Below are positions 797-30,257 of a stretch of DNA of 64,000 nt, piece after piece (the stretch's first letter is position 1; each line of letters starts with the position of its first letter). Source of the stretch: Turnera subulata (Eukaryota > Streptophyta > Magnoliopsida > Malpighiales > Passifloraceae). Below the pieces are notes generated by a model. That model ran no database searches. It was not told where the DNA came from and was given only the letters and a program-made list of their open reading frames with translations. The stretch covers positions 30,483 through 94,482 of the forward strand of contig JAKUCV010002457.1 in assembly GCA_028386065.3 (NCBI GenBank), read 5' to 3'. A program made the translations under genes and the position numbers.

Positions 797-806
797 AATA
801 AATAAA
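797..806 (+). terminator. Poly(A) signal of antisense gene 1
   Basis: Two overlapping AATAAA hexamers lie 34 nt after the TAG of gene 1. T2 has AATAAA at 60813-60818 in the same place. The following 807-1525 is AT-rich spacer; I find no frame there that T1 and T2 share. Confidence 0.5.
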
Positions 807-1533: not shown

Positions 1534-1640
1534 ACGGAACGGTGAGGTGTAAATCATCAAAAGCATCTAAAAGCAAACAAAACATCCAGGCAACCAAAAC
1601 CACAACGTTCAGCAAACAAAACACCACACGTCCAAACACA

Positions 1641-2324
1641 ATGCCTGCTCCATCATCCGTCTTCTTCGTCGAAGGTGCCAACGTAGGTAGAAGAAACCGG
1701 CTGGCCTACAGCATGATCAACGAGCGTACAGAAGAACTTCCGAACGAGCTCGGCAGAATGCCCCGTCTGGTCTTCGTCGACGAACTCTACTCGTCGAGGT
1801 TCTTCGTCACTCCCATGGAAGAGACGTTCTTCCTGGAGGACCATGGCACCCTGAGGACCTCCTACTACGGCTCGGCCAACTCCGTCATGTTTTTCATCTC
1901 TGAAAGACTTCAGGAGTTCAACCTAGAGTCCACTTGCCATACCTTGGAGCAAGGTACCTACTACCATCTCTCGATGACGGCCCAAAGCATGCCCAGAGTC
2001 ACTCGGTTACCCGTAACTTGGCCCAAGGCCCTACTACTGGTGTGGAACTGTAGAGGAGTCGCTAGGCATTCCCAGGAGTTCTCGCGTACCCTAAGGGACC
2101 TGAAGAACTAGTACAAGCCAAACATGGTTCTTCTCACGGAGACCCAATGGCAGTCTGAAGACGATCACGGTCTCATCCCACTCCGGTTCCCTCAAGCAAA
2201 CCGGTTCGAGCTTCCTGGCCAGAACAACACAGGTGGCATGTGGTTCTCGTGGAGCGACAGCATCACGGTCAACATCAACAATGACCCCAATAGCTTCAGG
2301 GTCAACGTCGTTCCAAGGCGATGA
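1641..2324 (+). pseudogene. Antisense gene 2 of T1: unknown domain plus truncated endonuclease-like domain; one in-frame stop
   Basis: The reading frame has 227 codons and starts MPAPSSVFFVEGAN. Residues 1-130 (motifs GRRNRLAYS, VFVDELYSSRFFVTPMEET, VMFFISERLQEF) match no family I recognise. Residues 132-227 start LLVWNCRGVAR and continue with an ETQW motif and GGMWFSWSD. This resembles the N-terminal part of the LINE-type endonuclease/exonuclease/phosphatase fold, but the downstream GDFN and SDH catalytic blocks are absent. A TAG at 2109-2111 replaces the CAG (Gln) codon seen in T2. Otherwise the frame is open to the TGA at 2322. It is antisense to the retrotransposon. Codons are strongly C/G-ending, unlike the AT-rich surroundings. 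Function is unknown. Confidence 0.7.
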
Positions 2325-2586
2325 ATGTATTTTTACTTTTTTTTTTACAAAATATCAATGTAATATTTAAGTTTGTAATGAAAATATTAGTATTATTAAT
2401 AATATTTATATTTCCGTTTATTTATGGTATCATTTACCTCTTATGTGAATGTTCTGCGACAACTGGTGTCCCTTGACTGGATCCATAATGCACTAACTAA
2501 ATGATATAAAATAATAAACAAATGGAGCGAACTATGCAAACAAGGACAACAAACACACAAGGACTGCCCAACAAGACCTAATGCCC

Positions 2587-2598
2587 GCTCCGCTACCA
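2587..2598 (-). promoter_or_regulatory. Primer binding site of T1
   Basis: On the minus strand TGGTAGCGGAGC begins 3 nt after the LTR end. It resembles the iMet tRNA site TGGTATCAGAGC with two mismatches; T2 has one mismatch. It fixes the element's orientation as minus. Confidence 0.7.
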
Positions 2599-2912
2599 AA
2601 ATGAAATGCCCCGACCCGTATTTACCGTACACAATAAACATGTGCCGGAACTGTGACGACCCAACCAAACCAAGCCCAGCATACAGTGTATACAACAGTA
2701 ACTCGGGCTCAACAGCCCAAAATAAAAACAACAATAACAACATAACTGGCCCAATGGCCCAACAATAGTAAAAATAATGCACAGCGGAAGACTTAATAAC
2801 TCACAAGACACTGTATGCGACATATGATGCAAACTATGGATCCAAGTCCTGTCCAACGGATAACGCCACAGCCTGTCTGGAATGCACCAAACCTGTACCA
2901 CAAGTAACTCAT

Positions 2913-2960
2913 CCTACGGGATGAAAGCCCGCAGGTGAGGGGTGAGTCCGAAGTGCTCAC
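2913..2960 (-). other. Conserved double stem-loop in the LTR
   Basis: On the plus strand CCTACGGG-atgaaag-CCCGCAGG is followed closely by GTGAG-(9 nt)-CTCAC. Read on the RNA-sense strand these are two adjacent hairpins. The block is nearly unchanged in all the related LTRs here (2913, 43534, 44849, 48240, 53569, 58808, 62896), while flanking sequence varies much more. Confidence 0.55.
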
Positions 2961-3198
2961 CGACGAAGGATAGACAATCAATATGCAACACTATAGTACT
3001 CAAGGTCTAAAACACAGGCTTAACAGCTAAATATATACCAATACAAAAGACTCGACCCAAAACTGGTCCAAGTCCAAAAAGACTCAAACAAAAATCCAAT
3101 TTCCAATTTTATCTTTCCGGGCCCCGTCACGGATAAGCTAGAGGTCAGACCTGGTTATCAACACATTTCGGGTGCTAGACCAAATCCAAGAGAACCCA

Positions 3199-3577
3199 GG
3201 GATCGACATCCCAAAAATACGAACCCAGGGATAGACATCCCAAAAATAATCACGGGATAGACATCCCAAGCATAGACATGCTTATCACAAGTAACCCAGG
3301 TCACGGCCACCACGAAACAGTCTCAAACCATCGAGTCGTACCACTACTTACCACGTGACAATTATATTATCATCAACCAAATCAAATCACAGGGATCGAC
3401 ATCCCTAACCAAAATACCGGGATAGACATCCCTATCCAAAATCAAGGATCGACATCCTTATCACAATTTATTATTAATTCCATTATACTTAAACCAAAAA
3501 GACGCAAGGATAAACATCCAAAAACCAACATGGGATAAACATCCCGACCACAATCAAGACAAAGGGATAAACATCCC
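3199..3577 (-). repeat. Array of ten short hairpins in the T1 LTR
   Basis: Ten units of the form stem-4nt-stem were read at 3199, 3228, 3254, 3268, 3391, 3419, 3444, 3508, 3532 and 3564. Most are GGGAT-nnnn-ATCCC. Variants AAGCAT-agac-ATGCTT and AAGGAT-cgac-ATCCTT keep full pairing. Loops are CGAC, AGAC or AAAC on the plus strand. The spacers are not conserved. Confidence 0.75.
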
Positions 3578-4739
3578 GAAACATACCACAGCAAATGCAA
3601 CATCCAACAATGCAATAATCAACAAAACATAATAACCGAGTAATACAGGCACATATTGAAGGAAATCCATCCTCACCTTGGCCGATTACTCAACTCCGGA
3701 AACAGTGACCGGTCCCAAGCCGGCTCCTTGGGAAACTGCCCGATATCCGAACCTATACAACAGAACAATATATACACATAAATGCACATAATCGGTATGC
3801 TATGATGCCAATACTTCGAAATAATCCCATCCCGGTTACATATCTTTTATTATCATCTTTTACCGAAAATATTATACCGTACGTATATCCGAATATAGTT
3901 TCGGTACCATACTTTAATTAAAACTCTTTTTCCAAAATATTTTCATTAAAATAATATACTTTTTTTCCAAAATAATAGTTACCATATTTTCCCAGAAAAA
4001 TAATAACGTATTTATAATTTCCAGAAAATATATATAATATTTATCTTTTTCTAAATATATATAATAATATTTTCCAACACAAAATATAATTACCTTTAGT
4101 TTTCAAAGTACATATATATATATTTCCACAACCATAATTTTCCAAGGAAAATAATATATATATAAAATTTCTAGGAATTATTTCATGGTACATATATTTT
4201 TTTTCCAATTAGTAATAGTTTTCCAAAACATAACTTAATTATTTATCAAAGTATATATATTTATATTTTCCTCAAAATATCAGAATTAAATTGATCAAAA
4301 TTTTCTCAAAGTAAGCATATATTTTTTTCCAAAATTAAATACCAGAATATGAATAAGTATATATATATATATATTTTGTTTTTTTTAAATTAAATCGAGC
4401 TGCCCAGGATCCAACCCAGGCGCGACCCGGCCGCGACCCGCCCGTGAAAATGGGTTGCTCACCTTGATGACGGCGGCGGCGCGACTGACGCGAAGAGAAG
4501 GAAGCCGCGTGGAAGGCAAGCTCGAGGCGACTCCAATGGCGGTGGAAAGGCGGCACGACGGCTGAGCAGAGCGGAGGAGAAGCAGATCCGCTGGGTTCTC
4601 CACCGGGTCAACGGCGCGTCACGGCCCGTCAGGCGGCGGAAGGAGGAGGAGGCGACGACACGGGGAGCTCGATGGTGGCGGCGGTGCAGCGAACGGCGGC
4701 CTGGAGCGTCTCGACGTGCACAGTAACCGTAAGGGTGAC

Positions 4740-5030
4740 GCACTGTTCATCTCTTCCGGGTTTTCTTTTTTTTCCCTATTTTCTTTCCTTTTTTTTCTAT
4801 TTTTTGTTTTGTTTTTATTATTATTTTTTTTCTTTTTCTTTCTTCTTCTCTTCTTTTTTTTTCTGATTTTCTCCTTTTTTTCATTTCTTTCTCTTTTTTT
4901 TTCTTTTTTTTCTTCTTTTTTTTTCCTTTCCTTTTTCTCTCTTTTTTTTTCTCTCTTTTTTTTTCTCCTCTTTCTTTTCTCTCTTTTTCTCTTCTTCCCC
5001 TTCTCCTGCTTCCTTCTTCTTTTATAGAAC
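4740..5030 (-). repeat. Long polypyrimidine/polypurine tract in the T1 LTR
   Basis: About 290 bp on the plus strand is almost purely C and T, so the LTR sense strand is A/G. The same position in D (56945-57305) and in T2's left LTR (59640-59880) has an equivalent tract. Lys/Arg/Glu-rich or Phe/Ser/Leu-rich frames across it are composition artefacts. Confidence 0.8.
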
Positions 5031-5354
5031 GTAATAATACTGTGCAGCGTGTGAACTTCAATAATGCAGCTTGTCTGCATTATGAAGCGAATCCGGTCCG
5101 GACCAGAAAATAACTAATACCCCCTTAGTTATTTTTCGGTGTGATTTTTCTGAGGATTCCGGGACCCAAAAAATACCGACTTAAGTCCGAAAAAATCCAC
5201 GGAAAAATCTTGAGCGCGGGAAAACCCTCGGTTTCGAAAAACGACGCCCGATTTACCTTTAATTAATTACCTAAGATTAATTCTTTCGGTAAATCACTGT
5301 AAAAAGATTTTTACAGTCCCGTTAAAAATCAAAATTTTTACCCGGGCTGTTACA

Positions 5355-6057
5355 CATATGTTCCCACCTTTGGGCATGTTTAGTTGGTTGCAATTTCAGC
5401 TTTTTTTTTATTTTTCTTTTAAAAAAAAGCATATTTGGCTAACCTAGTTTTGGCTTGTTTAAGTGTTAAGTGAAAACAACATCTAATTTTAAAGGACACC
5501 ATAAAAAATAGTTTTTGTATTTTGGTTTTCATTTTACAGTTCAATTTTAAATTTTAAAAACTTAAAAACTCTAAACTTTAATTCCAAAATCCTAAACCTG
5601 CATATTCACAAGAAAAATTAATTATCCGGCCTTCATATCATAAGGTTGGTTCAGAATTACTAGCTTTTTTTGGAAAGAATTCAGGAATATTTGTTGACCA
5701 TTCAGATATATTATGATTTTTATCGATGCATCAACCAGATGGTCTTATGTGTGTTTATTGTCCCCACGCAATTTGGCATTTACGCGCTTAAGATTTATTT
5801 ACAACAAAGTTTGATGATTGTTATTTTGAAGAAAATATTTTTCCAATAACGGGCGGAGAAAATAAAAAGGCAGATAAGAGATTAAATAGAATGCTATATC
5901 ATTATTAACCCTTGATCCTCGAACAAATCAGTATAAATTCGAAGTTCAAAAGATGATTCATTTGCAAAATATAGCAAATCAATTGCCAGACGCATTTACT
6001 AATGTCGATAGAGTGACCAAATCTCATATACCAGCTGCAAATTGTCACAACCTGGGA
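5355..6057 (+). pseudogene. Ty1/copia integrase and linker fragment
   Basis: 5355-5604 is AT-rich with no clear feature. From about 5660 the plus strand encodes broken copia integrase (IDASTRWS-like, 5715-5740). Near 5910-6050 the pre-RT linker appears (LDPRTNQ, IANQLPDAF, RVTKSHIPAAN). The same segments occur in minus-strand copia-1 (28700-28830 and 28070-28180), so this is an internally deleted relative. Several frameshifts are present. Confidence 0.65.
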
Positions 6058-7254
6058 ATCTAAGGTGCATAAATTTTCCTTAGGCATGCTGGTGCGCGTG
6101 TGGACTGACTTATTTTTGTTGGATTTAGGCTGACCACTTTGAATTCTAGCTAGAATAGACTTATAGGAGGAAGCCTAGTTGCGATAGCAATCCTATTATT
6201 TTTAGGGGAAGTAAGCTGAAACCTTGCGGCACTCATAGGACGCGTGAGGGGAAGTTGTTGGGCGTACATTAATATTGATAGTTTATTAATAATAATAACG
6301 ATTCTTTTCCTACTATTTTTCTTACTTTTCTTATTCGCTTGGTTCTTTCTTTATTGTGTTTGCGTGTGGAAGAATTACAAGTTTAGGAACAATCTAGCCT
6401 GTGCTGCACGGTGAGAGTATGCATTCGCTGCGCTACACTCTTAGGCTATGACAAGTAATAATGGAGCAGTCAAGAAGAAGCCAACAAGAGGCTTAAAGCC
6501 ATCGGTTGAGGGTGGAGCAAAATTAAAAGGGGGTCCTTTGTCTCATGCTGTCGACTAAATTGCTTCGGAAAAGTGGTTCTTATTGCCGACTTTTCTTTAT
6601 TATGGAAGAAGAAGACTGAATCGATTGAAGGAAATAATTATTTGTACTTACTTCTTCTCTGATCACCAATTTTACGCAATCCTTGAAAAAGACAATAAAG
6701 GTGGTGCTGTTGGTTGTGACTGAAAATTGAGGTGGTGAATTTTGGACTTTTTTAGACAAGTAGAGTAGCCAAGTTTTGTCATCCACACCATTATTTGCAT
6801 GGAGAAACAAGTCATAACCAAAATTCTTTTTTTGGTTATTTGTTTTACGTCAAGTAGGTGTCTATTTGGGCAGAAATTTTGCTTACGAGTATCCCACTCG
6901 GAGAAAATTTTTGGACTGGAATTTTATTATTATTTTTCAAGGGAGAGAGTAGAATGAATTGGTATTCTTGTTTTTTTTTTGCTGCACAATTGTTGGGGTG
7001 GGTGCTTGGACATAATTGCGACCTTTGTTTTTTTTGTCTTCTTGGCTGAATTGTGGGAGTACCTTGGAGGTAGCAACTGCCTCGACATTGGACAACAAGG
7101 GGATGTGGGGTTTTTTTTTAGGGCAATGGGATGTGGAAATTTGAAGGCCTACTCTAGTGATTTTGAAGTGGGAGAAGGGGCTGAATTGGGGCTGGTCCTT
7201 GTGTGGAAAAGTAGTACTCAGTGCTTACTTTGAGTTGTAGTACTAACAACTTGT
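6058..7254. other. Unassigned repeat-like DNA
   Basis: I find no supported gene. The frames at 6858-7233 are short and have no recognisable motif. The region directly precedes a Ty3/gypsy gag fragment in the same orientation, so it may be that element's leader or LTR. That is inference. Confidence 0.3.
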
Positions 7255-7400
7255 TTGTGGAGGTGGTATTGCCTTGACACAACTTTTGAGCACAAGTACA
7301 CTTTGCGTGGAGAAGATAGTGAAGCCAGCGGGTACTGTCTTGATACAGCTTTTAAGAACAGGTACACTTTTTATGGAGAGGATGTGGAGCCAACAGGTGA
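7255..7400 (+). repeat. Two-copy imperfect tandem repeat (unit about 66 bp)
   Basis: The two units share a TTGA(C/T)ACA block followed by CTTTTGAG or CTTTTAAG, then GTACACTTT and GGAGA. The repeat lies upstream of the gag fragment. Confidence 0.5.
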
Positions 7401-7555
7401 GTTGGCAGGGTCTTCAGTTACCGATAAAGTACATAAGGGTATTGTACCAAAGACTAAAGAATATCGTGGGTGTCCGTTGGAATGTATTGAGTCCGACCAA
7501 AGAAGAAATATCGGTCATAGTCGATAAATCCTTGGACTTCCTTGGATAAGCAGAT

Positions 7556-8253
7556 GATGGATCTCGAGGATCAGTTCAGGGTCTTCAAAATCGAGAAGGA
7601 AGGCATGCTAGAGGACTTGGATGGTACAAAGAACTGGGTGCAAGGGGCACTATAGTAGATGGCAGACATACTGAGACAAGAGTCCAGGCGGGAGTTGAAG
7701 ACATTGCTGGTAACCTACTGGTTCGTTTGTCTAGAGTCGAGGCAAACATAGAGGATTAGATAGCACTCAAGGAGGACATGGTACTTTGCAAGGCGAAACT
7801 TGCAAATTTAGCTTCAGTTGGTGTACACGGTCTGGCAAAGCCTAAAGCTAAAGTGTAGGTTCCAGAGCTACGAGGGTATAATGGTTCGAGATTCGCTAGG
7901 AAGCTTGATGGGCTTTTGTTTGAGTTGGGGACATACTGTGCTAGGCTAGGCATCACTGAGGAACCGGACAAGGTGCAAACGATGACAATGTGTCTCTCTG
8001 AGGCGCGTAGTTATGCTGGATGTCTAGTCCTGGAGTGGAGGGGACGTTACCTTCGTGGGTTGGATTCAAAGCCAAGCTCAAGACACAGTTCTATCCACAA
8101 CATGTCGAGCGGGAAGCATTGGACAAGCTGTGGACACTCAGGCAAGAGGATAGTATTCGGAAGCATGTTCAGGATTTCCTAAAGTTGCTATTAGAGATCA
8201 ACATACCAGGGATAGAGGCATTCTATGCTTTCATGGGTAGTCTGAAACTATGA
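7556..8253 (+). pseudogene. Ty3/gypsy gag fragment
   Basis: Split frames read as a Retrotrans_gag-type capsid: a 'DGLLFELGTYCARLGI' block near 7909, LVLEWRGRY near 8027, then FKAKLKTQFYPQHVEREALD (8068-8127) and a LWTLRQEDSIRKHVQDF block. The order and the FYP-x-RxAxxKLxxLRQxxSI pattern are characteristic of plant gypsy capsids. Stops upstream of 7750 and a frameshift near 8050 break it. No pol follows; LTR-like sequence begins almost at once. Confidence 0.65.
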
Positions 8254-9683
8254 ACAACTAAAATTGACCATCCATATTTTATTAATTTGGACACTTAATG
8301 TGCTTTAACCTAAGGTTAATAAGATGATTTAATTTTGGACTTAGGATGTGTTTAGAGTTTGAATTAATCAAATATAGACACTCACAAGAGTATGGCCCAT
8401 AAGAACATATTTCTTGCAGCTTACTTTGATTCGGATTTCGTCAAAAATTAGAATTAAAATTACATTTTGAGTGAAATGTGAGAATATGGTAAAATATTGT
8501 TAATTTTGAGTAGATTTTGGTGTAGTAATGTTAATTGGAGTGATCTAGAGGAGTCACCATTAAGAAAAGAGTATATTCTAGTTTGACAATCTTTGATTCA
8601 CGGGGAAAGATCAAATCAGACTGGAATTAATGTGAATTCGAAGGTAAAAAGTGCAAGAATGCGTAACAGTAATGAGGGCTGGACAGTCATCTCGCGATGA
8701 CCGCCAAGCCCGACGTTCATATCGACAAGACCGCCCGGCATGGCGGTCATCTAGCACTAGGACGCGGAAAATCTTTAATTTTTCGACCATTATGATGATC
8801 CTATGCGTTTTTGGTTGGATTTTCAGCAAAGATCCCGACCATTATGAGGTCCATGACCTCTGTACTCCTAGAACTCTATAAATAGTAGCCCTCTACTCAC
8901 TTCCAAAAGATCCAGAAATTCTCTACACACACACCTCTAGAAGCTTAGAAAGCTTGGACAAACTCTAATTCTCCAAGCCCCTTAACACTTTTAGTACTGT
9001 TATTCTGCCAAAATCTAGTGGAGTCAAGCATCAAGAAACATCTAGTAAGAGGAAATTAAGAGCTAATCAAGGTGAAGTTAGAGGAGGGCTGCAAGAGGTA
9101 AACCTTGATCTCTTTTCTGTATTGATGTTGTACTGAGATGCATGCTAATATGATGATGATGTGATTGTTGTGATGCCATGATTAGGAACTACGCGAGCTT
9201 TGAACCCGGTTGCCGGGGCATGTAGGTGGTCTCTAGTGGTGGAGACTCAAGCCAAATCCTTTCCCCTACCTTTCTTTTAATTTCAGATTATTTATTTTGC
9301 TGATGTGATTTGCTTCCACACTTACACAAGGCAAACAAATTTAATTCAATTATTACACAAAGTTCTGCCCCAGCACAGGTGGGGTGCCTAACACCTTCCT
9401 ACCCGTGATGAACTACCGAATCCAATAATCTGTGGTTCACTATGATCAATTTCTTAAGTTTGTTGCCTAAGAGAAGTGATGCCCAAAGCTTTTTCCTTAG
9501 ATTTTTTCAAGGAATAAAATCAGGGTGGCAACTCTATATTGTTATTGAATATAGATCATTTAAGGTGAGGAGGACAAAAGGGATTGATTTGGCCAGGGTC
9601 CTCACAGAAACATTGGACGCAATAGATAATTCTAGGACCCAATTAGATTTCGACAGAGATACTCTTCTAGTATATAAAAAAGG
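8254..9683 (+). repeat. Ty3/gypsy LTR-like sequence
   Basis: There is a TATA-like CTATAAATAG at about 8876. Two phrases common in plant Tat/Ogre-type LTRs also occur: GGGTGCCTAACACCTTCC (about 9379) and AGGGTGGCAACTC (about 9522). No partner LTR or TSD was found. Lineage assignment is from memory of such LTRs and is tentative. Confidence 0.45.
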
Positions 9684-9932
9684 GTAAATAGCTTATAGAG
9701 GGTCCGTACTATTTCAAAAGTATCGTTTGGGGGTCTATACTATTTTTTGTCTCTTTTACAGGTCTGTACTCTTATTTTTCGTCCCTTTTAAGGGTCTCGG
9801 GAAGCCCCGCTGATGACGTGGATTGCCCGAGACCCCTAAAAGGGACGAAAAATAAGAGTATAGACCCGTAAAATGGAAAAGAAATAGTACAGACCCCCAA
9901 ACGATACTTTTGAAATCGTACGGACCCTATAA
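9684..9932. mobile_element. Palindromic MITE, copy 1
   Basis: This is a near-perfect inverted repeat of about 249 bp with arms containing GGGTCCGTACTATTTC and a centre near TGATGACGTGGA. It belongs to a four-copy family in this window (9684, 10336, 36421, 36946). The left end is GTAAATAGCTTATAG; the right end is less conserved. Confidence 0.8.
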
Positions 9933-10017
9933 CTTCTCGTCCGGAACTAATAACTCATTATGGCCCTTTTCTTGTTCTCGACCGTTTTCCCTAACGGTTA
10001 GTACATTGGTTTTTTGC

Positions 10018-10290
10018 TATTTTTTAAAGTTTCGAGATAAGAGTGGAGACTAATACTATCCTTTACATCATGTTGAAATAAGAACAAGGAAAAAAATTTG
10101 AACCAAAACGAGTTCCGGACGAGAAGTTATGGCCATTTTTGAATTTACGGCACGAGTTTTATGCTAATTTTTTAAATTTCGAGCTAAGTGTGGAGATAGA
10201 TACTATTCATTAGACCATGTTAAAATAAGATTGAGGAAAGAATTTGAACCAAAACGAGTTCCGGACAAGAAGTTATGGCCATTTTCGACT
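10018..10290. repeat. Two-copy repeat, unit about 148 bp
   Basis: Units begin near 10018 and 10166 and share TTTCGAG(A/C)TAAG, TTTGAACCAAAACGAGTTCC and AAGTTATGGCCATTTT. The repeat fills the space between two MITE copies. Confidence 0.65.
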
Positions 10291-10335
10291 TTACGGTAGT
10301 TTCCTTAGGGGATAGTATACGAGTTTTTTTCCCGA

Positions 10336-10595
10336 GTAAATCGCATATATAGGGTCCGTACTATTTCGAAAGTATTGTTTGGGGGTCTGTACTACTTTTT
10401 GTCCATTTTACAGGTCTGTAGTCTTATTTTTCGTTCCTTTTAGGGGTCTCGGGCTGCCCTGCTGATGACGTGGACTGCCCGAGACCCCTAAAAGGGACGA
10501 AAAATAAGAGTATAGACCCGTAAAAAGGACAAAAAATAGTACAGACCCCCAAAAGATACTTTTGAAATAGTACAGACCCTATATATGCGATTTAC
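10336..10595. mobile_element. Palindromic MITE, copy 2
   Basis: This 260-bp element starts GTAAATCGCATATATAGGG and ends with the exact reverse complement. The arms are about 120 bp each around a short centre (TGATGACGTGG). There is no coding capacity. Because the termini are symmetric, the TSD cannot be told from the inverted repeat. Confidence 0.85.
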
Positions 10596-11530
10596 CCATA
10601 TTAAAAAAAAAAGGACAGAAGTGTGTAGGAATAAGAAGAGAGTTAAAGTTTATAGTAGGATGTAAGTGTAGAAATGTGAAGGAATGAAGGGGTATTTATG
10701 GTTAGAAATGGGAAGATATAAACAAATAAGTATGATTAATTTAAAATGATAAAATCAAAATAATATTAGGTAAAGGAAGATGATATTAAAACTAAAACAA
10801 ATAGAATTATGGAAGGTAAATGGCCAAAAGATGAATCAAAGTGAAAATTAAGTATAGGGATAAAATATTTACTATTGACAAAATCCGAGTATGATAAAAA
10901 TAAATTTTACCGGATGGAAACAATGATATTTACATAATTTATTTATAATATAAACCATTTTTTCTCACTACAAATAGTTTTTACATAATTTATTTATAAT
11001 ATAAACCATTTTTTCTCACTACAAATAGTTTTGGGGAAAGAGGGACAAGTGTGTGCGAGTGGTTGAGTAAAAGTGAGAGAGCTTGTTATTCATTTAGGGT
11101 TAGTGTTTCTTATGGGCTGGGGTGGATTGAGTAGTTTGGGCTTGTCATAGAAATAGGTTGAGTTGGGTAATTTATTGTGGGATTGTTCTAGGCTTGTCGG
11201 TACGGTTTGTACTGAAATCCAACGATACAACCCTCATTATACCGAGCACTTTCACCCATGGAAATGACACAGCCCAAGTCCGTAATAGATAATCCTAGGA
11301 CCCAATTAGATTTCATTACTGTCAGTTCTTTTTGGAAATGGGTACGGTGAGTTCAGTTCGGTTTAATTTTCTCTTCCCTACTTTTAACTCATCCAACTCT
11401 TCATAAGAGACTGAACTCAACTCTTTTGTGGATTTGCTATGGTGTTGCTTTCATCTTTTGCTCATGTACAATTGAATACATGTTGAAAAAGATACGAATA
11501 AGATAGCTTATTTGTTCGTTAGGCAAACAT
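10596..11530. repeat. AT-rich intergenic DNA with a 51-bp tandem duplication (10929-11031)
   Basis: Two adjacent identical 51-bp units start near 10931 and 10982 and contain TACATAATTTATTTATAATA. No gene is seen in the rest. The sequence at 11285-11317 repeats that at 9622-9655 (GATAATYCTAGGACCC...AGATTTC). Confidence 0.6.
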
Positions 11531-11667
11531 AACATACATCATATATGAGGAGATGAAAAAAGGAAGGGGTGCGCGTGGTGGTGCGTGATATTCTCTCAAT
11601 TGGGTTTAGTTTCTGTTTTGGGTTTTTGGTTGGCTTTTTTCACACAACACTTGGGGGGCACTGGAGA

Positions 11668-12582
11668 ATGACAACGGGGGACCCTCCTTCCCTAATGGAG
11701 GAGGATAACGGGACTAAAAGTGACGATGATCATCTCGGTCATAGTCATAAGAAGGTGAGATTGGGTTCTGGTTTAGTGGGAGAGGTGGAGTTCGTGTGAA
11801 TGGGGTGGCTGTTGGGGAGGAGGTTTCTGAGTCCTCGAGGAGAAAAATCTCATTTAAGGAGCTCCTTCTGGGTCCTGCTGCACGGGATATGGACATGGAG
11901 GATCAACAAGCAGAGAGTGAGTGTGATGAGTATGATTATGTGGTATCAGATTCTGATGAGGAATTGGAGGATCCGGAGTGTCCAATGGTGCATTTCTCGG
12001 CATCTGACAAGAAGCGCATGTATAGGCGTTGGAAGAATGTTATGATTGTAAAGGTTCTGGGTAAAGGGGTTGGCTACCAGTTTCTGTAGAATCGACTGAA
12101 CTCGTTATGGCACACCCAACGCCCGTACACTCTTGCGACTATGGGTAATGACTTTTTCTTGGTGAACTTTGCTTGTGAAGATGATTTTAACTCTGTGTTG
12201 TTTGGAGGACCATGGACTGTGGCTGATCACTATCTTACTGTGAGACATTGGCACCCAGGATTTTGATCCATTTAAAGCTTCTATTGAGCGAGTTGCTATT
12301 TGGGTTCATATTCCCTATCTTGGTATGGAGTACTATGAGGACAATGTGTTGTATCGAATTGGGAATAGGCTAGGACGTACTCTAAGGATTGACAGAGCTA
12401 CTTTGGCTGGGGAGAGGGCTGAATTTGCAAAGTTATATGTTAAGGTTGACCTAACTAAGCCTCTTATGGCTAAATTCTGTACTGGAAGGAGGGTTTGGAG
12501 GGTGGAGTATAAGGGACTACACCTGATTTGCTTTGGGTGTCCTAATGCCAAAGATCAATCTTATGAGGATTCACAATCCTGA
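11668..12582 (+). pseudogene. LINE ORF1 (DUF4283 / zinc knuckle), broken
   Basis: The likely start is the ATG at 11668 (MTTGDPPSLM). The frame shifts near 11790 into VNGVAVGEEVSESS. DUF4283 features follow: WKNVMIVKVLGKGVGYQFL, a TAG at 12087 where Gln or Lys is expected, NDFFLVNF, and FGGPWTVADHYLTVRHW. A second frameshift near 12262 leads into a VAIWVHIPYLGMEYY block, and a partial knuckle LICFGCPNAK ends it. The final 30 bases (12557-12588) duplicate sequence found at the start of ORF2 (about 12741-12772), so the true C-terminus has been replaced. Confidence 0.8.
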
Positions 12583-12671
12583 TTTGAATGGGATAGAACG
12601 GGTGATTGTTTCTTCTGATACTTTTGATCTTAGTATAGATTGAGTATGTCTAAACTTTATACTCTGTTATA

Positions 12672-13826
12672 ATGATAGCTAATATATTGTATTAGAACTG
12701 TCGTGGAGCTAAGAGTAGAAGGCTCCAGGGTATATAGAATGATCTTATGAGGATTCACAAACCTGATTTGGTAGTGTTAGCTGAACCAAAAATCAGTGAG
12801 GTGACTGCTGATAGAGTGGTTAGGAGGATGGGGTTGGAATTGATAGTGCGGATTGAGGCTTGTGGGTTTTCTGGAGGTTTATGGATTTAAAGTAGGAGGG
12901 TTGTTGATTTTTGTGTTTTGGAGGTCAATTCACAGTTTATTCATGGCTGAGTTTCTGAGAGGGATGATACTGCTTGGTTTCTAACTTTGGTGTATGTTAA
13001 CCTAAATTTGGAACTTAAATCGCAGTTTTGGGCAGATTTGCTTCGATTGAGTCAGGGCATTAATGGTCTCTGGGCAGTGATGGGGGACTTTAATAATGTC
13101 CTCTCGGATGCTGAAAAAAGGGGAGGATTGCTTGCTGATTTGAGTCGTTGTAATTGGTTTAAAGACAGACTTGGGGACTGTAACTTGGAAGATGCGGGTG
13201 TTGTTGGTCCTAGGTTCACTTGGAGGGGGCCTAAGAGAGTTAGATTAGGGAGGATTTTTGAAAGGTTGGATAGGGTAGTATGTAATATGCAGTGGAGTTT
13301 GTTATTTCCTGAAGCAGTGATCTGCAATTTGCCGAGGGTAAAGTCTGACCATCACCCAATTTTACTTTCTGTCCAAGTTGATGTAGGCATTAGAGTAAAG
13401 ATCAAACCTTTTAGGTTTGAAGCTGCTTGGTTACAACATGACTCGTTTAGTGAGGTGATTAAATCTGGTTGGAGACGGGAGGTTCATATTGCTGCTGCTT
13501 TATTTAATTTGCAGGAATGTTTATGCAAATGGAATAAGGAAGTTTTTGGCAACATATTCTATAGAAAGCGAAAGCTTTTAGCGAGGCTACATAGAGCTCA
13601 AAGAGCTCTTGCCTTACGCCCCAACCCGTTTCTATATTCATTGGAGGAAGAGCTTTTAGTTGAATACCATAAGACCCTAACACAGGAGGAGATTTTGTGG
13701 CATCAGAAGTCAAGAGTAAAATGGTTGATTGAGGGAGATAGAAGCACTAGATTTTATCATCTATCCACAATAATGCGCAGGAGGCGAAATAGGGTGGAGG
13801 CACTTAAGGATAATTCTAGCACCTAG
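12672..13826 (+). pseudogene. LINE ORF2, endonuclease domain
   Basis: It begins MIANILY, then a TAG replaces the Trp of the WNCRGA motif at 12693. Endonuclease blocks follow: HKPDLVVLAEPK, SGGLW, GDFNNVLSDAEKRGG (about 13086-13130), the SDHHPI box (about 13347), then the linker ending WLIEGDRSTRFYHLSTIMRR. Stops in the 12880-12950 stretch and at 13824-13826 break the frame. From 12987 to the final stop it is open for 279 codons. Confidence 0.85.
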
Positions 13827-16670: not shown

Positions 16671-16792
16671 GCCACTTTTGTTTAAAGACTCTGATAGGAG
16701 CTAATGACTCCAGGGTTGTAAATACAGTTTAATGAAATAAAAGGCGCTAAGCCCCTATTTTCACCAAAAAAAAAAAACATACATCATATATG

Positions 16793-22419: not shown

Positions 22420-22434
22420 TGCAAAAGGATTTAC

Positions 22435-23330
22435 CTAGAAGATGATATAAAAGGATTAGTCCTGGGTTGCTGGAACTCGGGGTTTATAGTTGGTCGGAAG
22501 TATGATCAAAAGTAGGCAACAGCAAGAAAGAAGGAAAAGAGGCAAATTAGGAAACCATTTGAGATACGAGACACTAGACCATAGTAGATCTTAGAGGTCA
22601 AATACAAGGAGAAAGAAGCAAGAAGAATGGAAAAATGAAGATTTTACTGGCAAGGGGAGACAACCACCCAGTTGTCATATTTAGCTACCGAAGCACTGAT
22701 CTAACTATAAAAAGGAAAGCAAAAGGGAGAACAAATTAATGCTTCCAAATAAGGGAAGCTATCAATATGGCAAGAAGAAGTACATTCATATTGACACCAA
22801 GTTTGTGTAGAAGAAGACAAGTTAGGAATCTATCAGTATCACATGATTGATTGATTGATTGATTGATGATTGCACGCACTGAAGCAACGCAACGCAACGC
22901 AACGCAACACAGAATATGAAGGAAGAAGGGGGTAAATCAATGGGGGCAAGAATTACCTGATACTCTTACGCGTTGACAGGGGTGAGGTCTGGTCTTGGTC
23001 TACTCTACAGGACAGGGAGAAAAATGGGTTGGTACACTTGAAAGCCAGAAGAGGTCAACAGCTCCATAGATACAAGTACAACACAAGCATGCTTTGGATC
23101 AGGAGGAAAGACCCATCAAGGGGGTAGGGAAGAAGAGGCGAATTGAGGAACCCAGTTGAGGATTTGAAGAAGAACAAATTGGTGGGCTGGAAAAATTCAA
23201 GCAAACTGCAAACGGGGTGGGGTTTATGTGGAGACTTTTCTTTCCACTCTTCTGCTGCTGATTCTTCTGATTCTCTCCCTCCCTCCCTATTACTACTACT
23301 TAGTACTATTTATTTATTTATTCTTGTGGC
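22435..23330 (-). promoter_or_regulatory. GONST1 5' untranslated exon, leader intron and promoter region
   Basis: A minus-strand acceptor (CTAG at 22438-22435) precedes the 15-nt leader before the ATG. A consensus donor CAG-GTAATT ends an upstream untranslated exon at 22957. The leader intron (22435-22956) contains a (GATT)n run (22844-22869) and an (AACGC)n run (22884-22907). An AT-rich AATAAATAAATAAATAG at about 23306-23322 (minus strand) could act as the TATA region, putting the transcript start near 23280. The splice sites are clear; the promoter position is a guess. Confidence 0.55.
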
Positions 23331-23873
23331 GTTGGTGTTGTCTTTTTTAGAATTGATGGGTTGTTTTGTTTGTTAAATTAGTTGAGGAAGGAAAGGGCAA
23401 AAGGGATGCTGTTTTCTGGGCGGTTTTTGTCTTTTCAATATCGACTCATTCGACGACATTGGACAGTGGATGGAAGAACAACACAAGACCTTTTTTTTCT
23501 TTTTTTTGGGACAGGAACAACACAAGTTAAACAACAATACTAAGGGATGTGATGCAAGTACGAATTAGTAGTAGGTACTAGGTAGTGGTATGGTACTGGT
23601 GGTAGTCGACAAACAAAGAATAGTAGTGGGGGTGGTAGTGATTAGTGGGCTGTACTGTTGTCTGTCTCCCCCCTCCAACCCACCTTGGCTTTTACCATTG
23701 TTAGGCCAACTCCCACCATTACCCCATCCAATCGCACGCAGCAGCTTTTCCTCTCTCCAAAGTACTAATTTTGACTATTTGGATATAGATAATCTTTTTT
23801 GGATGATATGATATCATAAATAATTAAGGCATTCATTCTCCTTTGTTCTTAAAATTAATTAAAAACCTATCAT
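23331..23873. other. Upstream intergenic DNA
   Basis: I see only simple-sequence runs and no gene. The short frames at 23143-23376 and 23590-23811 are G/T-rich without recognisable motifs. Confidence 0.4.
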
Positions 23874-23963
23874 CCGGATGGTGGCCCAGTGGCAAAGTCT
23901 TAGCTTGCCATCTTTAGGATTCGGATTCGAGTCTCAGAAGATCACACTGTGGAGTTCCATCTT
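23874..23963 (+). mobile_element. tRNA-derived SINE head, cut by the copia-1 LTR
   Basis: GGATGGTGGCCCAGTGG contains an A-box-like TGGCCCAGTGG. GGATTCGAGTC, about 40 nt later, is B-box-like. The sequence is not a full tRNA cloverleaf. It stops at the copia LTR start (23964). Diagnosed as a plant SINE 5' part by the internal Pol III promoter boxes; family unknown. Confidence 0.6.
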
Positions 23964-24098
23964 TGTTATAAAATAAAAGGTGATGAACAATAAAATAAAA
24001 GGAATAAATTATTAGGGAGAGAATTTATTTATTAAAAGTATATATCACCATATCAAACTGACTCATAATGTAGACATTTTTATTTATATGCCATTGCA
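23964..24098 (-). repeat. copia-1 3' LTR
   Basis: TGTTATAAAATAAAA...CATTGCA on the plus strand, 135 bp, TG...CA. It matches the split right LTR over its whole length. Confidence 0.8.
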
Positions 24099-24386
24099 AT
24101 ACTCCCCAATGAATGTCATTGTATTTTAGATAGAATATGCTTTTGAAATAAATGCCTCGTTAGCAGTGCGTATTCCACTCCACCTGATTTTGGCATCACT
24201 TGATATCTCGAATCATCCATAAACCAATCTTCTTCATCAATTCTTCAAAAGTTGTAGTAGGAATTGATTTTGTAATAAATCTGTTAAATGTCACTTGAAT
24301 GATTCTTTGATGTATCCTCCCTTCAATTGTGCAATGCAGTTAGCATTATCTTCATAAATTGTCATTGTAACATCTTCCTCGCCAAC

Positions 24387-25205
24387 CGGGGGGGGGGGGG
24401 CGTTCATGGCCCTCCCTAAAATTTGGGAAATGACTAAGGGTAAAATAGTAATTTTTGCATTTTATTAAGTAAAAAGTATAAATATTTTTAATTTATCACT
24501 TCTTTAAACTAAATTTATTTATTATTGTCCAAATCTTTATGTGAGTATCCCAAGATTACCGTGAGCGTTTTGAAACAATTAAAGCATTGATGACTTACCA
24601 TTATTTTATATGCATAACTTACCTATTTTATCTTGTTTACTTTTTAAAATTTATTTAACCACTAGATAATACAATTTCTCTATAAATAGGGATCAAGTCT
24701 AGAGAAAAAATGTTAATAACTTTATAGTAAATTTTGTATAACATTTTTTGTCAAAACATCATATTTTTTATTGAAAATTTAAATTAAAAAACTAATTATC
24801 TAATTAAATTCTGGTTGAAAACATATTATATTATTATTGTTATTTTTGTGAAATATTTTAATAACTTTAAATTTAATTTCAGAAATATTTTACTAATCAA
24901 ATTTGATATATATTTGTTTTTGCCCACGCTTCAATTATTTCATACATTTGTGCAATATCAATTAAAAATTCATGGCTAACAACTAATGATTAACCTTTAC
25001 AACTATGATTTAGAATATAATTTTTTAATTCTAATTCTAGAATTTTATATCATAATTTTTTTATTTAATTAAATTCTAAAATTATATTTTATTATATTTA
25101 AAAAAATTATAATATATATTTTTTATATATACACTCGATTAGTATCCGAAAAAAATTGTATATAAACTTGGCCCCCCCTACTCGTAAATCCTGGATCCGC
25201 CCCTA
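24387..25205 (-). mobile_element. hAT-like non-autonomous element with 8-bp TSD
   Basis: This 819-bp AT-rich insert has TCGCCAAC repeated exactly at 24379-24386 and 25206-25213. The right end, read inward, is AGGGGCGGATCCAGGAT, which is typical of plant hAT termini. The left end has a run of G that probably replaced the matching terminus. There is no transposase. Confidence 0.75.
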
Positions 25206-26154
25206 TCGCCAACTAATCCATATGAATCTTGACTATGTTGCATCATCGATCTTAGCCAAACATATTCTCGATTGACTTCATGTAAGGCCACAATTTCTGC
25301 ATTATTTGAAGAAGTATCCACGATACTTTGTTTTGTGGTTGCCATGATACTTCATGTATTTGTCTGTACTTTATATGGATCAAATAAATGGCTTGCATCT
25401 GCAAAATAAATTTTATTCTCCTTGGACTCACAAAGTTAAAATAATTTTATGTTATATCTTGCTAATAAGTTTTATCGCAAAAGCTTCAGGCTTTATGTTA
25501 CTAGCAAGATAAACTGCACCACAATATGGTACTTCAAGACCAATCTAATCTTTGCGAGATTTTTCTTCTCAAAATCTTTCATTAAAACATAGCAGAGATT
25601 TGGAAACTTCTTCAGGAGTTCCAATAGTATTTAAATCAAATAAAAATGATGAAAAAAAATCATATGTTGATTAAGATACCACAACAATATCTAGATCATC
25701 AATAGCAATAATAAATTCACACATATATCGCTTAAGTAAAACACATAGAGCATATATGCAAGAATAATTATACTACACATACCCAAATTGGTTCAAACCA
25801 CGTAAAGATCAATTTAGTTTAATTGAATATATATATCTCGGGAATTAGTTGCTTCAGGCAACATGAATCCTTCAAGGATTCTCATATATATGTCATGACT
25901 TATGGATCTATACAAATAGGCTGTAATAGCATCCATTAGATGCATTTTTAGTTTTTCATGTATTGCCAGACTTATCAAATACTGAAAAATGATTACATCC
26001 ATCACAGGGGAGTATGTCTCCTCATAATCACTACCAGGTCATTTGGTAAAACCTTGTGCGACAAGCCGTGCTTTATATCTCACTATTTCATTTTATTCGT
26101 TTTTTTTTTTGCACAAATACCCATTTGTAATCGACCGATTTTACACCATAAGGT

Positions 26155-27521
26155 TGTAACGCCCCGAATTTCGTTAATTGATTTTTACAGAATTTTCAAA
26201 TTTTTTTTGGTATTTAATTTCCACATTTACCCTTGTGGAATTTCCGGGATTCTTGGTCAAGAAAATTATTACTCTTTTAATTTATTTTCCTTGGGAATAT
26301 AAATTTAAAAGTCAAAATTTGTCCTTGGTTCGGGTTTTGTTGGAGTAAATGTGTCTCGGGGCTTGACGCGGAGTTTTTAGTAGTTTGGGTCAAAACTACG
26401 TCGTTTTGGGGAAAAGAGAAAAAAAAAAAGAAAAAAACGTTGACTGGCCAGGGCGGGTTGACCGCGCCTAAGCCAAAACGAAACGACGTCGTTTTGGCTA
26501 GGCCGGCCAAACCCTAGGCCTCCTTCTTTTCTTTTTCCTTCTCTTTTTCTCCATTCTTTTTCTTCTCTTCCCTTTTCTCTCCCGGCCGCCTCCATGCTCC
26601 CATTCCCTCTCTTCCCTTGTTTTTCCAAACCGCTGCCACCAATTTCCCCCTTCTCACTTCCTCTTCTTCTTCATCCTTCCTTCGGGCCACCGTCACACTT
26701 GTACACGCCGTCGCCCCAGTTCAGGTCGAGCCGCCGTTGTCGAGCTGAGGGAGGAGGCGGGGGTCCGGTTCAAGGTCGGGGCTCGGACTTGCAGCGTGAC
26801 GGAGAGCCGATGCTGCTCGTGTCGCCGTCTGGTAAGCTTGCCTCGCCACTCTCGTGGCGACACGAGCAGCATCGGCACTCTGTCACGCTGCAAGTCCGAG
26901 CCCCGACCTTGAACCGGACCCCCGCCTCCTCCCTCAGCTCGACAACGGCGGCTCGACCTGAACTGGGGCGACGGCGTGTACAAGTGTGACGGTGGCCCGA
27001 AGGAAGGATGAAGAAGAAGAGGAAGTGAGAAGGGGGAAATTGGTGGCAGCGGTTTGGAAAAATAAGGGAAGAGAGGGAATGGGAGCATGGAGGCGGCCGG
27101 GAGAGAAAAGGGAAGAGAAGAAAAAGAATGGAGAAAAAGAGAAGGAAAAAGAAAAGAAGGAGGCCTAGGGTTTGGCCGGCCTAGCCAAAACGACGTCGTT
27201 TCGTTTTGGCTTAGGCGCGGTCAACCCGCCCTGGCCAGTCAACGTTTTTTTTTTTTTCTCTTTTCCCCAAAACGACGTAGTTTCGACCCAAGCTACTAAA
27301 AACTCCGCGTCAAGCCCCGAGACACATTTACTCTAACAAAACCCAAACCAAGGACAAATTTCGACTTTTAAATTTATATTCCCAAGGAAAATAAATTAAA
27401 AGAGTAATAATTTTCTTGACCAAGAATCCCGGAAATTCCACAAGGGTAAATGTGGAAATTAAATACCAAAAAAATTTTGAAAATTCTGTAAAAATCAATT
27501 AACGAAATTCGGGGCGTTACA
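26155..27521. mobile_element. Palindromic LTR element (two U3 ends) with 5-bp TSD
   Basis: Both termini are TGTAACGCCCCGAATTTCG read inward. Arms of about 670 bp are roughly 98% identical around a 30-nt centre (about 26826-26855). AAGGT flanks it exactly (26150-26154, 27522-27526), and the copia RT frame continues across. Each arm looks like the first part of a Del-like LTR: TGTAAC start, AT-rich part, pyrimidine tract, GC-rich exon-like part and a CTG-GTAAG splice-donor-like site just before the turn. Opposite-strand frames are identical because of the palindrome and are not evidence of genes. Confidence 0.88.
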
Positions 27522-27670
27522 AAGGTGTTGGGATTATAGGCCCAAAAACTTCTCGCTTCATAAGCGAGTGTAACTCAGCCTTAATTTTGTCTCTTAATTT
27601 TGGCCAATCATTTCTCCGCCGGCATTCATGAACTGATTTTGGCTTATGATCCTCATTTCCTTTCATAATA

Positions 27671-29090
27671 TTTAGTGCTATATTATATGCAAAATTCCGT
27701 CGACGGTTATTTCACGTCGGTTCCATTTTGTTCCTGACACAATATAATAGAACGAGATCTCATTATTTTTATTTATTTCAGGTACCTGAATTACTTCTGA
27801 AACTTTGTCAATTATGTCAGAAACCTCTTATGGAGGATTTTCCTCTTCTTGAGGACTTTCAATTTGAACCTCTATTGGAGGTTTTATTTTCTCGCTGGGG
27901 CCATCTTGTTTCTTTGCTCCTTTCTTTTGTCGAGAATTTTTATCTTTGGAACCGAGTAGTCTTCTACGCTTCTGGTGTGCTTTAGATTCATTTGCATTCT
28001 TTGATTGTTTTCCAGGAACATCAATTTGAATAGGAGCATCTGCAGCTGGTATATAAGATTTGGTCACTCTATTTAGATCAGCAAATGTGTCTCGCAATTG
28101 ATTTATCAAATTTTGCAATGAATCACTTTTGAACTTCAAGTTCACACTAATTTATTCGAGGATCAAAAAATTGATATTGATATAGCATTTCAATAATCTC
28201 TTGGTCCAGCTGCTCATTTTGCCCCCTAATGTTGGGTAAACACTTTTATTACATTAACAATAAGCAAATCTTGTTGTAAATAAATCTCCAATCAATGGTT
28301 TCAATTATTTTTGTAACTGATGGAGATTCATACCCAACATATATTCCCATTCTTCTTTAAGAACCAATTTACTATGTTGTACAACTAATGGTCCAAAGAT
28401 GGGAGATATTAGGTTCGTGACCATGAACCAATTGAATAGGAGAGAGCTTATGATAATTTGTTGGCCTGATGCGCATAATGCTTGCTAGAAGCAAAATAGC
28501 ATGTCCCCAAGTAATAATGAGGAGTTTCCATGTCATCAATAATGACCTTACAATTAATTGGAAACATTTGATAAACGGTTTTGCTAGACCATTTTTGGTG
28601 TGAACAAAAACTACAGGATGTTCAACCATAAATCCAATTGACATATTATAACTAAATTCACCAGCATTATCAAGGCTCATAGTCTTCATAGCATGATTAG
28701 GGAAGTGTGCTCACAATTTGATTAAATGTAATAATAAGCGCGCAAATGCCAAATTGCATGAAGACAATAAGCACACACATGCGACCATCTAGTCGATGCA
28801 TCGATTAAAACCATAAAATGCCTAAATGGTACACACAGCGGATGTATATATCCGCAAATATTTCTCTGAATTCTTTCTAAAGAACGTTGGTGATTCTAGG
28901 TCAATCTTATTATATGCAGACCAAATAATTAATTTTTTTTTCTTGTGAGCAAGCAAGCACATGAAAATTCATTGGATTGGAAATATTTCTGGTTTTTCAA
29001 TGAACGACCAAATGAATTTTCAATAATTTCACGAATCATTATTGATCCGGGATGGCTCAACCGGTCTTGCCAAACAGTAAATCCATCAGC
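27671..29090 (-). pseudogene. copia-1 integrase and linker
   Basis: From high to low coordinate: GAG-pre-integrase block LSHPGSIMIREIIENSFGRS (29060-28985); CGYIHPLC and IDASTRWSHVC (28880-28780); LDNAGEFSYN (28680-28645); VEHPVVFVHTKNGLA; AWGHAILLLAS-like block; HGHEPNISHL (28410-28380); the C-terminal segment; and linker RVTKSYIPAADAPIQIDVPG (28070-28010). Frameshifts divide it. The DNAGEF Asp and surrounding fold residues identify the D,D35E integrase. Confidence 0.85.
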
Positions 29091-29439
29091 CAACTTCTAG
29101 TTGGTGCCATCTTCAGGCTGTGCAAACTATATATTTAATAATTTAAGAAAAATTATTTGCCAGCTCCAAGCTGTTATATACCAGCTTCAGGCTGTTGTGT
29201 ACCAGTATTAAATTACTGTGTGCCACTCATAATTGATGATGGAAAATCAAAGTGATTGAACAATTATTAATGTGATGGAAAACTTTTTCAAAAAACAAAT
29301 CCTTGAAGATTGAAAAAACTTTGGAGTTTTGTGAAAAATAATTCACATTTCTAATCACCGAAATTTTTCTTGGATCTTTTTGGAGACAGAAAAAGGGTCT
29401 ACATTTGAAAAAAAGATATCTTGCTTTCTAAGCTTAGAG

Positions 29440-29447
29440 TATAAGAG
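29440..29447 (+). promoter_or_regulatory. TATA-like box of antisense gene 2, copia-1 copy
   Basis: TATAAGAG in the context TTAGAGTATAAGAGGGG aligns with AAGAGTATAAAAGACGG of T1 and T2. It lies 66 nt before the ATG. Confidence 0.45.
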
Positions 29448-29505
29448 GGGAGGAGAGTTATGTGGTGGAAAACAGAAAGATTCAGAAAAACACAACGAGA
29501 TAAAG

Positions 29506-30188
29506 ATGCCTCCCCTGACTACTGTCTTCTTTGTTGAGGGTGCCTCTCTTGGAAGGAGGAACAGGTTAGCATATAGTTTGGTGAATGAGCAGTATGAGGA
29601 ATTACCGAGTGAGCTCACAAGAATTTCTCGTTTGGTTTTCGTTGATGAGCTCTATTCGTCTAGGTTCTTTGTAACTCCTATGGAAGAAACTTGCTTCGTA
29701 GAGGACCAAGGCAACCTAAGGGTTTCTTTTTATGGCTCAGCTAATTAAATTATGTTTTTCATTTCTGTAAGACTTCAGGAATTCCAGCTAGAGCCTTCTT
29801 GTCAATTTTTGAATTAGAGTAGTTATTATCAAGTTTTCATGATGGCTCGGAGTGTCCCTAGAGTGTCTGGGTTACCGCCTACGTGGCCTAAGGTTTGACT
29901 GCTACTATGGGATTACAGGGGAGTAGCCAGACGATCCCAAGATTTCGTGCGTACCTTAAGGGGTCTGAATAATCAGTATAAGCCTAACATGGTACTAATC
30001 TCGAAATTTTGTGGTAACCTGAAGAAAATCATGGAGTCATTCCACTTCGTTTTCCTCCAGCAAATTGGTTCGAGCTTCCCAGCGAGTACAACATGGGTGG
30101 TATGTGGTTCTCTTGGAACAATAGTATTAGGGTCAACATCAACAGTGATGTTCAAAGTTTTAGAGTCAATGTTGTACCCAACAGATAA
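29506..30188 (+). pseudogene. Diverged third copy of antisense gene 2
   Basis: The start is MPPLTTVFFVEGASLGRR, collinear with T1/T2 gene 2 to its end (VNVVPNR then TAA at 30186). Stops at 29746-29748 and in the following 130 bp, and a shift near 30010, make it a pseudogene. Against T1, the 20-codon block LVFVDELYSSRFFVTPMEET has 12 silent and no replacement changes. Codons are T/A-ending here and C/G-ending in T1. The copy is antisense to copia-1 and lies between its gag and integrase, where the protease region should be. Homology with T1/T2 continues about 100 bp past the stop. Confidence 0.85.
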
Positions 30189-30257
30189 AAAATATACATA
30201 AATAATTGTTTAAACTTATGTATGAGAACAATTACCTCTATGTGAGTGTTCTCAAAT

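Follow-up and report, generated by a model that had tools for sequence, protein, structure and literature searches.

Additional open reading frames (ORFs) on the antisense strand have already been described in plant long terminal repeat (LTR) retrotransposons (PMC7264820, PMC11963269). According to the accessible part of a 2020 review, the antisense gene of Grande has a promoter of its own and its product is nuclear, and antisense ORFs have no clear similarity to other transposons, except for the transposase-28 domain of Retand (PMC7264820). Some of the Retand clusters that contain such ORFs are non-autonomous, at least one domain being missing from 10 of 63, as far as the available text goes (PMC11963269). 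A 5′ additional ORF (aORF) of Tekay is reported, in the portion available, for 500 of 523 sunflower group-2 elements, with a nuclear localization signal (NLS) and helices in its product and counterparts in grasses (PMC11728184). The accessible text on bdelloid rotifers describes nuclease-like ORFs common to unlike retroelements and mentions inactive relatives of nucleases (PMC5408684); that on orchids describes gypsy elements having an ORF with an AlkB domain (PMC9289625). Here we consider a gene of this kind, gene 2, present in three plus-strand copies (T1, T2 and T3) in a 64 000-nt stretch of the Turnera subulata genome (assembly GCA_028386065.3, contig JAKUCV010002457.1, positions 30 483–94 482; the whole stretch is called ‘the window’ below), along with a shorter gene, gene 1, present beside T1 and T3. 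The copies of gene 2 diverged as protein-coding DNA, though all of them are broken now.

Genes 1 and 2 resemble Grande GENE23, RIRE2 and Retand ORF4 (Tat/Retand), as the available texts present these, in being conserved extra antisense genes without assigned function. The Tat/Retand antisense ORFs are placed there between pol and the 3′ LTR; the carrier in the window has no recognisable pol, so the positions are not comparable. The usual Retand-type position would fit genes 1 and 2 if gag-pol once lay between the primer-binding site (PBS) and gene 2. While the TRP28 domain (PF04195) is given for 97% of Retand clusters in the text at hand, Pfam scans found no PF04195 match in gene 1 or gene 2. 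With the Tekay 5′ aORFs of maize, rice, sorghum and sunflower, as far as they are described in the text seen, the common features are an additional gene, an NLS and helices; however, the Tekay aORF is one protein of ∼400 amino acids (aa), an ORF(+), in elements with gag-pol, whereas the window has two antisense genes, of 125 and 227 aa, and by this description we set them apart. The rotifer ORFs are alike in that the same kind of extra ORF occurs in unlike retroelements; in the part of the paper available, they belong to the DEDDy and GDSL families, and ‘antisense’ refers there to small RNAs, unlike the case of gene 2.

As with described aORFs, genes 1 and 2 are not gag-pol genes and lie beside LTR and PBS-like signals in two copies (T1 and T3); they are conserved at the protein level, with omega (the ratio of replacement to silent substitution rates) of 0.10–0.18 for gene 2 and 0.18 for gene 1. 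Judging by titles and openings of abstracts among the matches listed, with few subscription journals included, we found no report of an element that lacks gag and pol but has antisense genes, which is weak evidence of absence. With that reservation, what appears new here is the carrier without gag-pol, the second (copia-side) context and the endonuclease-like tail of gene 2; antisense extra ORFs themselves are known.

Codon constraint in genes 1 and 2

An initial annotation, made by a model from the sequence, placed gene 2 on the plus strand at 1641, 29506 and 61639, and these starts were borne out: T1 occupies 1641–2324, T2, a diverged copy (about 70% identical), 29506–30188, and T3 61639–62322. 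The argument for coding had been built on two blocks compared between T1 and T2, and both counts proved exact: in the 20-codon block LVFVDELYSSRFFVTPMEET 12 codons differ silently and none by replacement, and in the 22-codon block beginning with VFFVEGA the silent differences number 12 and the replacements 4. Because both blocks had been picked by hand, we tested the whole gene by a pairwise codon model (GY94 type, F3x4), with gain defined as twice the log-likelihood difference from omega = 1; all omega figures for gene 2 come from the three copies within the window. Omega was 0.117 for T1/T2, 0.103 for T2/T3 and 0.179 for T1/T3, with gains of 125.9, 147.2 and 29.7, respectively; silent divergence (dS) of T2 from T1 and T3 was about 1.6–1.8. 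Values this far from 1 across the three copies uphold the initial view that neutral decay of non-coding DNA is an inadequate account.

The differences over codons 1–227, counted at positions 1/2/3, were 50/33/124 for T1/T2 (P = 5e-15 against a third-position share of 1/3), 48/29/132 for T2/T3 (P = 1e-18) and 15/8/25 for T1/T3 (P = 0.006). Constraint was significant in all three pairs for codons 1–80, 81–130 and 131–170, and codons 172–227 were constrained in both pairs with T2 (omega 0.13 and 0.15). Four of the five alternative frames, including two of the minus frames, had omega > 1 in all three pairs. The remaining one, minus frame 1, had omega of 0.251, 0.235 and 0.390 (T1/T2, T2/T3 and T1/T3), with gains of 53.4, 61.5 and 8.5 and with 7–13 stops per copy; such values are expected of a frame whose wobble position is common with that of the gene 2 frame. 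A sense-strand frame as constrained as gene 2, or more so, which the initial annotation had named as evidence against its claim, was not seen among the three copies. The divergence of gene 2 copies as protein-coding DNA is thereby confirmed.

The present state of the gene is different. T1 has 227 codons, interrupted by a TAG at codon 157 and followed by a TGA at codon 228. In T3 a TAG falls at codon 171, and codon 228 is not a stop. T2 is broken by stops at codons 81, 104 and 131, has lost one base at codon 166 and, in the aligned frame, meets another stop at 171. Thus, the ‘real protein of about 227 residues’ of the initial annotation stands as past coding, by the codon constraint, but not as an intact copy. 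The ancestral protein probably had 227 residues, the length given by the stop that T1 and T2 share at codon 228; as all three copies carry stops, selection on gene 2 is past. At codon 171 T1 has CAG, whereas T3 and the aligned frame of T2 have a stop. We considered programmed readthrough at this codon: codons 172–227 are constrained in comparison with T2, yet constraint in the T1/T3 pair is not significant, and the simpler and likely account of these stops is that dead copies decayed in parallel by C-to-T changes.

Gene 1 is open in both copies, at 386–763 (+) in T1 (125 aa) and at 60397–60771 (+) in T3 (124 codons and a stop); the two are 93% identical, with omega 0.181 and a gain of 15.1. 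The product has basic NLS-like patches, KKRFK and RRRKKR, and is predicted to be helical from residue 33 (33–64, 77–105 and 109–124) in a model with mean predicted local distance difference test (pLDDT) score 66.7. Pfam gave it weak matches, none of which reached the cut-off (HEAT_ULK4, Sec3_CC and COG3_N among them), and these were taken as coiled-coil noise; no relative was found at E 0.01 among 5.8 billion proteins (11 candidates).

The carrier of T1 and T3 and the cassette beside a copia remnant

The regions of T1 and T3 are homologous from 331–4029 and 60344–64000, respectively (89%); to the left of 331 the T1 region is unlike T3 and continues past the edge of the window. The description of gene 2 as antisense to a retroelement holds for these two copies, by minus-strand LTR ends and a PBS-like site; in the case of T2 it rests on an adjoining minus-strand copia integrase and, on the opposite side, on a gag tail read by eye. 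The order in the sense direction of the element is 5′ LTR, PBS, gene 2 (antisense), gene 1 (antisense), polypurine tract (PPT) and 3′ LTR; genes 1 and 2 occupy the PBS-to-PPT space, with 248–263 bp from the end of gene 2 to the PBS and 184 bp from the start of gene 1 to the 3′ LTR. The LTR starts on the minus strand with TGTAACA(G/A)CCCGGG, and three bases past its end, on the same strand, there is TGGTAGC(A/G)GAGC. This PBS-like site is located at 2587–2598 (−) in T1, where 11 of 12 bases are as in T3, and at 62570–62581 (−) in T3 (TGGTAGCAGAGC); the T3 site is one mismatch (11/12) away from what we take to be the initiator-Met PBS pattern.

The 5′ LTR of the T1 element spans 2602–5354 (−; 2753 bp). 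In T3 the internal region is 60214–62584 (−; 2.4 kb), with a purine-rich tract at its 3′ LTR end (60214–60226, −) that we assume to be PPT-like; the 5′ LTR, 62585–64000 (−), continues past the window edge. The T3 3′ LTR is in three pieces. Its distal piece, 43236–44598 (−), was found by alignment to the T3 5′ LTR; then follows a nested insertion at 44599–56196 (−), flanked by the target duplication TAATT, whose uninterrupted site is seen in the T3 5′ LTR at 63951. The middle piece, 56197–56612 (−), aligns to the T1 LTR up to 56591, its end being set by the target duplication (AACAG) of a nested solo LTR at 56613–59166 (+). The proximal piece, 59167–60213 (−), aligns to the T1 LTR from 59446, with 59167–59445 assigned by position. 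Within the nested element at 44599–56196 other LTRs of the same kind lie on the plus strand; its two minus-strand ORFs (397 and 303 aa) reached nothing better than E 0.16 in Pfam.

Pfam scans of three minus frames each of T3 60214–62584 and T1 1–2601 gave no match of any kind up to E 0.1, and so no recognisable gag or pol; the reverse transcriptase (RT) and chromodomain integrase of Tekay/Del are absent from the same scans. We presume a Tekay/Del chromovirus label for the carrier by its LTR, PBS and PPT motifs, a relation that amounts at most to LTR kinship. Plus-strand TATA-like boxes, identified by motif, are located before gene 2 (1526–1532 in T1, 61514 in T3, TATAAG at 29440 in T2) and gene 1 (344 in T1, 60357 in T3). 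AATAAA follows the genes at 797 and 2513 in T1 and at 60813 and 62507 in T3, and such motifs are present elsewhere in the region too; short motifs of the TATA and AATAAA types are common in AT-rich DNA.

Flank alignments to T1 delimit around T2 a cassette at 29242–30287 (+), made up of gene 2 and homologous 5′ and 3′ flanks. In the 5′ flank 1424–1501 aligns with 29242–29316, and in the 3′ flank 2381–2510 aligns with 30189–30287; in either test 0 of 1000 shuffles scored as high, as compared with 691 and 933 of 1000 for control pairs. The TATA-region alignment between T1 and T2 was equalled by 23 of 1000 shuffles and is weak taken alone. To the left of T2 there is a copia integrase remnant (28378–28698, −), matched in tblastn by 36 of 120 copia-type proteins; by the two best of these matches, the stretch runs from the last part of the integrase core into the beginning of the SH3-like domain. 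None of the 120 proteins matched within the T2 cassette, to the right of T2 or beside T1 (5355–9500), and stop-masked frames around T2, whether long or short, had no Pfam match. A gag tail to the right of T2, read by eye, was supported by neither Pfam nor tblastn.

Other features of the window include copia polyprotein pieces at 32941–35102 (+), with Pol_BBD, gag_pre-integrs, rve, SH3_retrovirus and RVT_2 domains, one ORF of which has 5074 database relatives. A long and almost perfect inverted repeat at 26154–27522 has inner arms 26419–26826 and 26856–27263 (99% complementary, 29 nt apart) and outer arms 26154–26429 and 27247–27522 (98%). A repeat family of ∼250 bp is present in both orientations at 9672–10602 and 36416–37206, with direct copies 62–91% identical to the reference.

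Origin of gene 2 and the place of selection

The initial annotation called the gene 2 protein unlike any that it recognised. For the first ∼130 residues, which match nothing, this stands; the C-terminal ∼95 residues, however, resemble the start of an endonuclease of a long interspersed nuclear element (LINE). The Pfam profile Exo_endo_phos gave E 0.026 for whole T1, 0.0038 for the T1 C-terminus and 0.024 for the T3 C-terminus, and no match for the piece of T1 at 1641–2111. The match covers profile positions 2–91 of 225, and the protein ends with 134 of 225 positions remaining; thus, it stops before the rest of the endonuclease/exonuclease/phosphatase (EEP) domain, where the later catalytic motifs of EEP endonucleases are located. 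Compared with one LINE of the window, at 12660, gene 2 had local scores of 57 and 61 over 38 columns (NCRG ... E), which none of 2000 shuffles equalled in either test (maxima 44 and 46); a further GG.W..W resemblance to the LINE endonuclease was seen by eye. The likeness to LINE endonucleases (EEP superfamily) is at the N-terminal part of the profile, but no RT follows in gene 2. The LINE-like endonuclease in the window is itself degraded (12660–13826, +; start set by eye), and its ORF at 12987–13826 matches the later part of the Exo_endo_phos profile.

Since T1 and T2 are far apart, their constraint could have been acquired in any carrier or host; T1 and T3 belong to one element family, so it is this pair that carries the claim of selection inside a transposon. 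On a three-branch tree omega = 1 on T1 and T3 together was rejected (log-likelihood, lnL, −1614.25 versus −1602.06 with all branches free); one common omega gave −1604.45, and the free estimates were 0.41 for T1, 0.11 for T3 and 0.10 for T2. Of 1350 sites compared between the T3 5′ LTR and the distal piece of its 3′ LTR, 26 are different (Kimura two-parameter distance, K2P, 0.0195), i.e. about 0.75 million years at a rate that we assume to be 1.3e-8. The LTRs of T1 and T3 are at K2P 0.106–0.115, apart from the proximal piece of the T3 3′ LTR, rich in simple pyrimidine runs, which is at 0.211 from the T1 LTR. With 0.0195 on the one hand and 0.106–0.115 on the other, much of the T1/T3 divergence is therefore older than the T3 insertion. 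Between T1 and T3 the two genes are at K2P 0.077 and 0.074, with zero gaps in both, while the 880-bp stretch between the genes is at 0.138, with 41 gap columns. We read these data as showing gene 2 kept while the lineage transposed, with T1 mostly decayed afterwards.

Both genes were constrained at the protein level in the past, they lie antisense to the carrier, and gene 2 has common flanks in a copia-side context. The explanation that we favour, and consider fairly probable though well short of secure, is that gene 2, like gene 1 beside it, is an accessory gene that a small plant LTR retrotransposon without recognisable gag or pol carries on its antisense strand, and that it was kept while the elements transposed. 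The antisense gene of Grande, with its own promoter and nuclear product, provides a precedent.

A number of observations weigh against this explanation. The window holds two copies of the T1/T3 element, and gene 2 is intact in neither. Omega = 1 is not rejected on T1 alone (lnL −1602.26) or on T3 alone (−1603.30). Changes polarised by T2, a rough guide given the distance of T2, number 4 silent and 13 non-silent in T1 (13 and 7 in T3), and T1 therefore resembles mere decay; in codons 172–227 the T1/T3 omega is 0.45, the constraint there being the non-significant one mentioned above. The stretch 2325–2601 between gene 2 and the LTR, not known to code, has a gene-like K2P of 0.077 (with 17 gap columns), and so do the 55 bp upstream of gene 1 (0.080). 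As to the origin of the tail, all Exo_endo_phos matches are below the curated cut-off, with none for whole T3 or the T2 C-terminus; solved endonuclease structures were unmatched, the T1 C-terminus reaching only chance-level E of 0.48 and 0.65, and a structure model of gene 2 from three sequences was unusable (mean pLDDT 32.8). No relative of gene 2 was found at E 0.01 among 5.8 billion proteins (66 candidates), in a search that requires shared 5-residue words and in a database where repeat-masked annotation may hide relatives. As a control, one copia ORF retrieved 5074 proteins at E 1e-5, the best 120 including many from named plants; plant proteins are therefore present in the database. The 170-aa ORF of T3 had no match in plasmids, viral contigs or contigs of prokaryote genomes, collections that would not be expected to contain a plant gene.

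One could suppose instead that gene 2 is a host or viral gene, selected elsewhere and captured more than once, being a passenger in the elements. Such separate captures would agree with the deep divergence of T2 from T1 and T3 (dS about 1.6–1.8), with the different kinds of retroelements involved and with the neutral look of the changes in T1. However, T1 and T3 share one element structure and yet have omega of 0.18 for both genes; T2, too, has T1-like flanks beyond the ORF; and no source gene appeared among the 5.8 billion proteins, many plant proteins included, within the limits of word matching and repeat masking just given. We regard capture as unlikely, though worth keeping in view. We would also be surprised, if less than astonished, to find that the genes were kept in an autonomous gag-pol relative with the same antisense genes, T3 being a deletion derivative that inherited them. 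T3 has LTR, PBS-like and PPT-like signals with neither gag nor pol, the T1 region before 331 does not resemble T3 and extends beyond the window edge, and loss of gag-pol between the PBS and gene 2 would put the genes in a once Retand-like location between pol and the 3′ LTR; against this, no gag-pol of the family was found in a scan of eight translations (six from the minus frames of T1 and T3 and two, each a single minus frame, from 44600–51085).

That the signal reflects constraint on the sense strand or on RNA structure, and not on a plus-strand protein, is very improbable: minus frame 1 does have omega of 0.23–0.39, but with 7–13 stops per copy and a smaller gain, while the other two minus frames have omega > 1 and the differences concentrate at plus-strand third positions. 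Chance or an alignment artefact, for which the hand-picked blocks gave some ground, is hardly credible with whole-frame gains of 126, 147 and 30 and third-position P down to 1e-18.

Returning to the accessory-gene explanation, an element without gag-pol would presumably be moved in trans by autonomous relatives. A separate TATA promoter may drive each gene, giving transcripts opposite in strand to the genomic RNA of the element. We infer the functions of genes 1 and 2 by analogy: both products would be nuclear, that of gene 1 a basic helical protein and that of gene 2 a nuclease-derived, catalytically dead nucleic-acid binder, and they may shield the element from silencing or tune its expression. 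Lineages keeping the genes would spread, because the gene products, as we propose, help copies of their own family; single inserted copies would then decay by mutation.

A broader and more tentative conjecture, which we think rather less than even in its chances, is that the gene 2 family is confined to the antisense strand of plant retroelements, has its own promoter and 3′ end and has been exchanged between Ty3/gypsy-like and Ty1/copia-like carriers; the protein would be a domain of unknown kind fused to a dead LINE endonuclease fragment, and it would aid the spread of elements without gag-pol. Extra genes are common in plant retrotransposons. If the accessory-gene explanation is true, antisense genes were selected in an otherwise non-coding element, which would point to a direct benefit to the element itself, and the endonuclease-like tail may be a clue to the origin of antisense ORFs.

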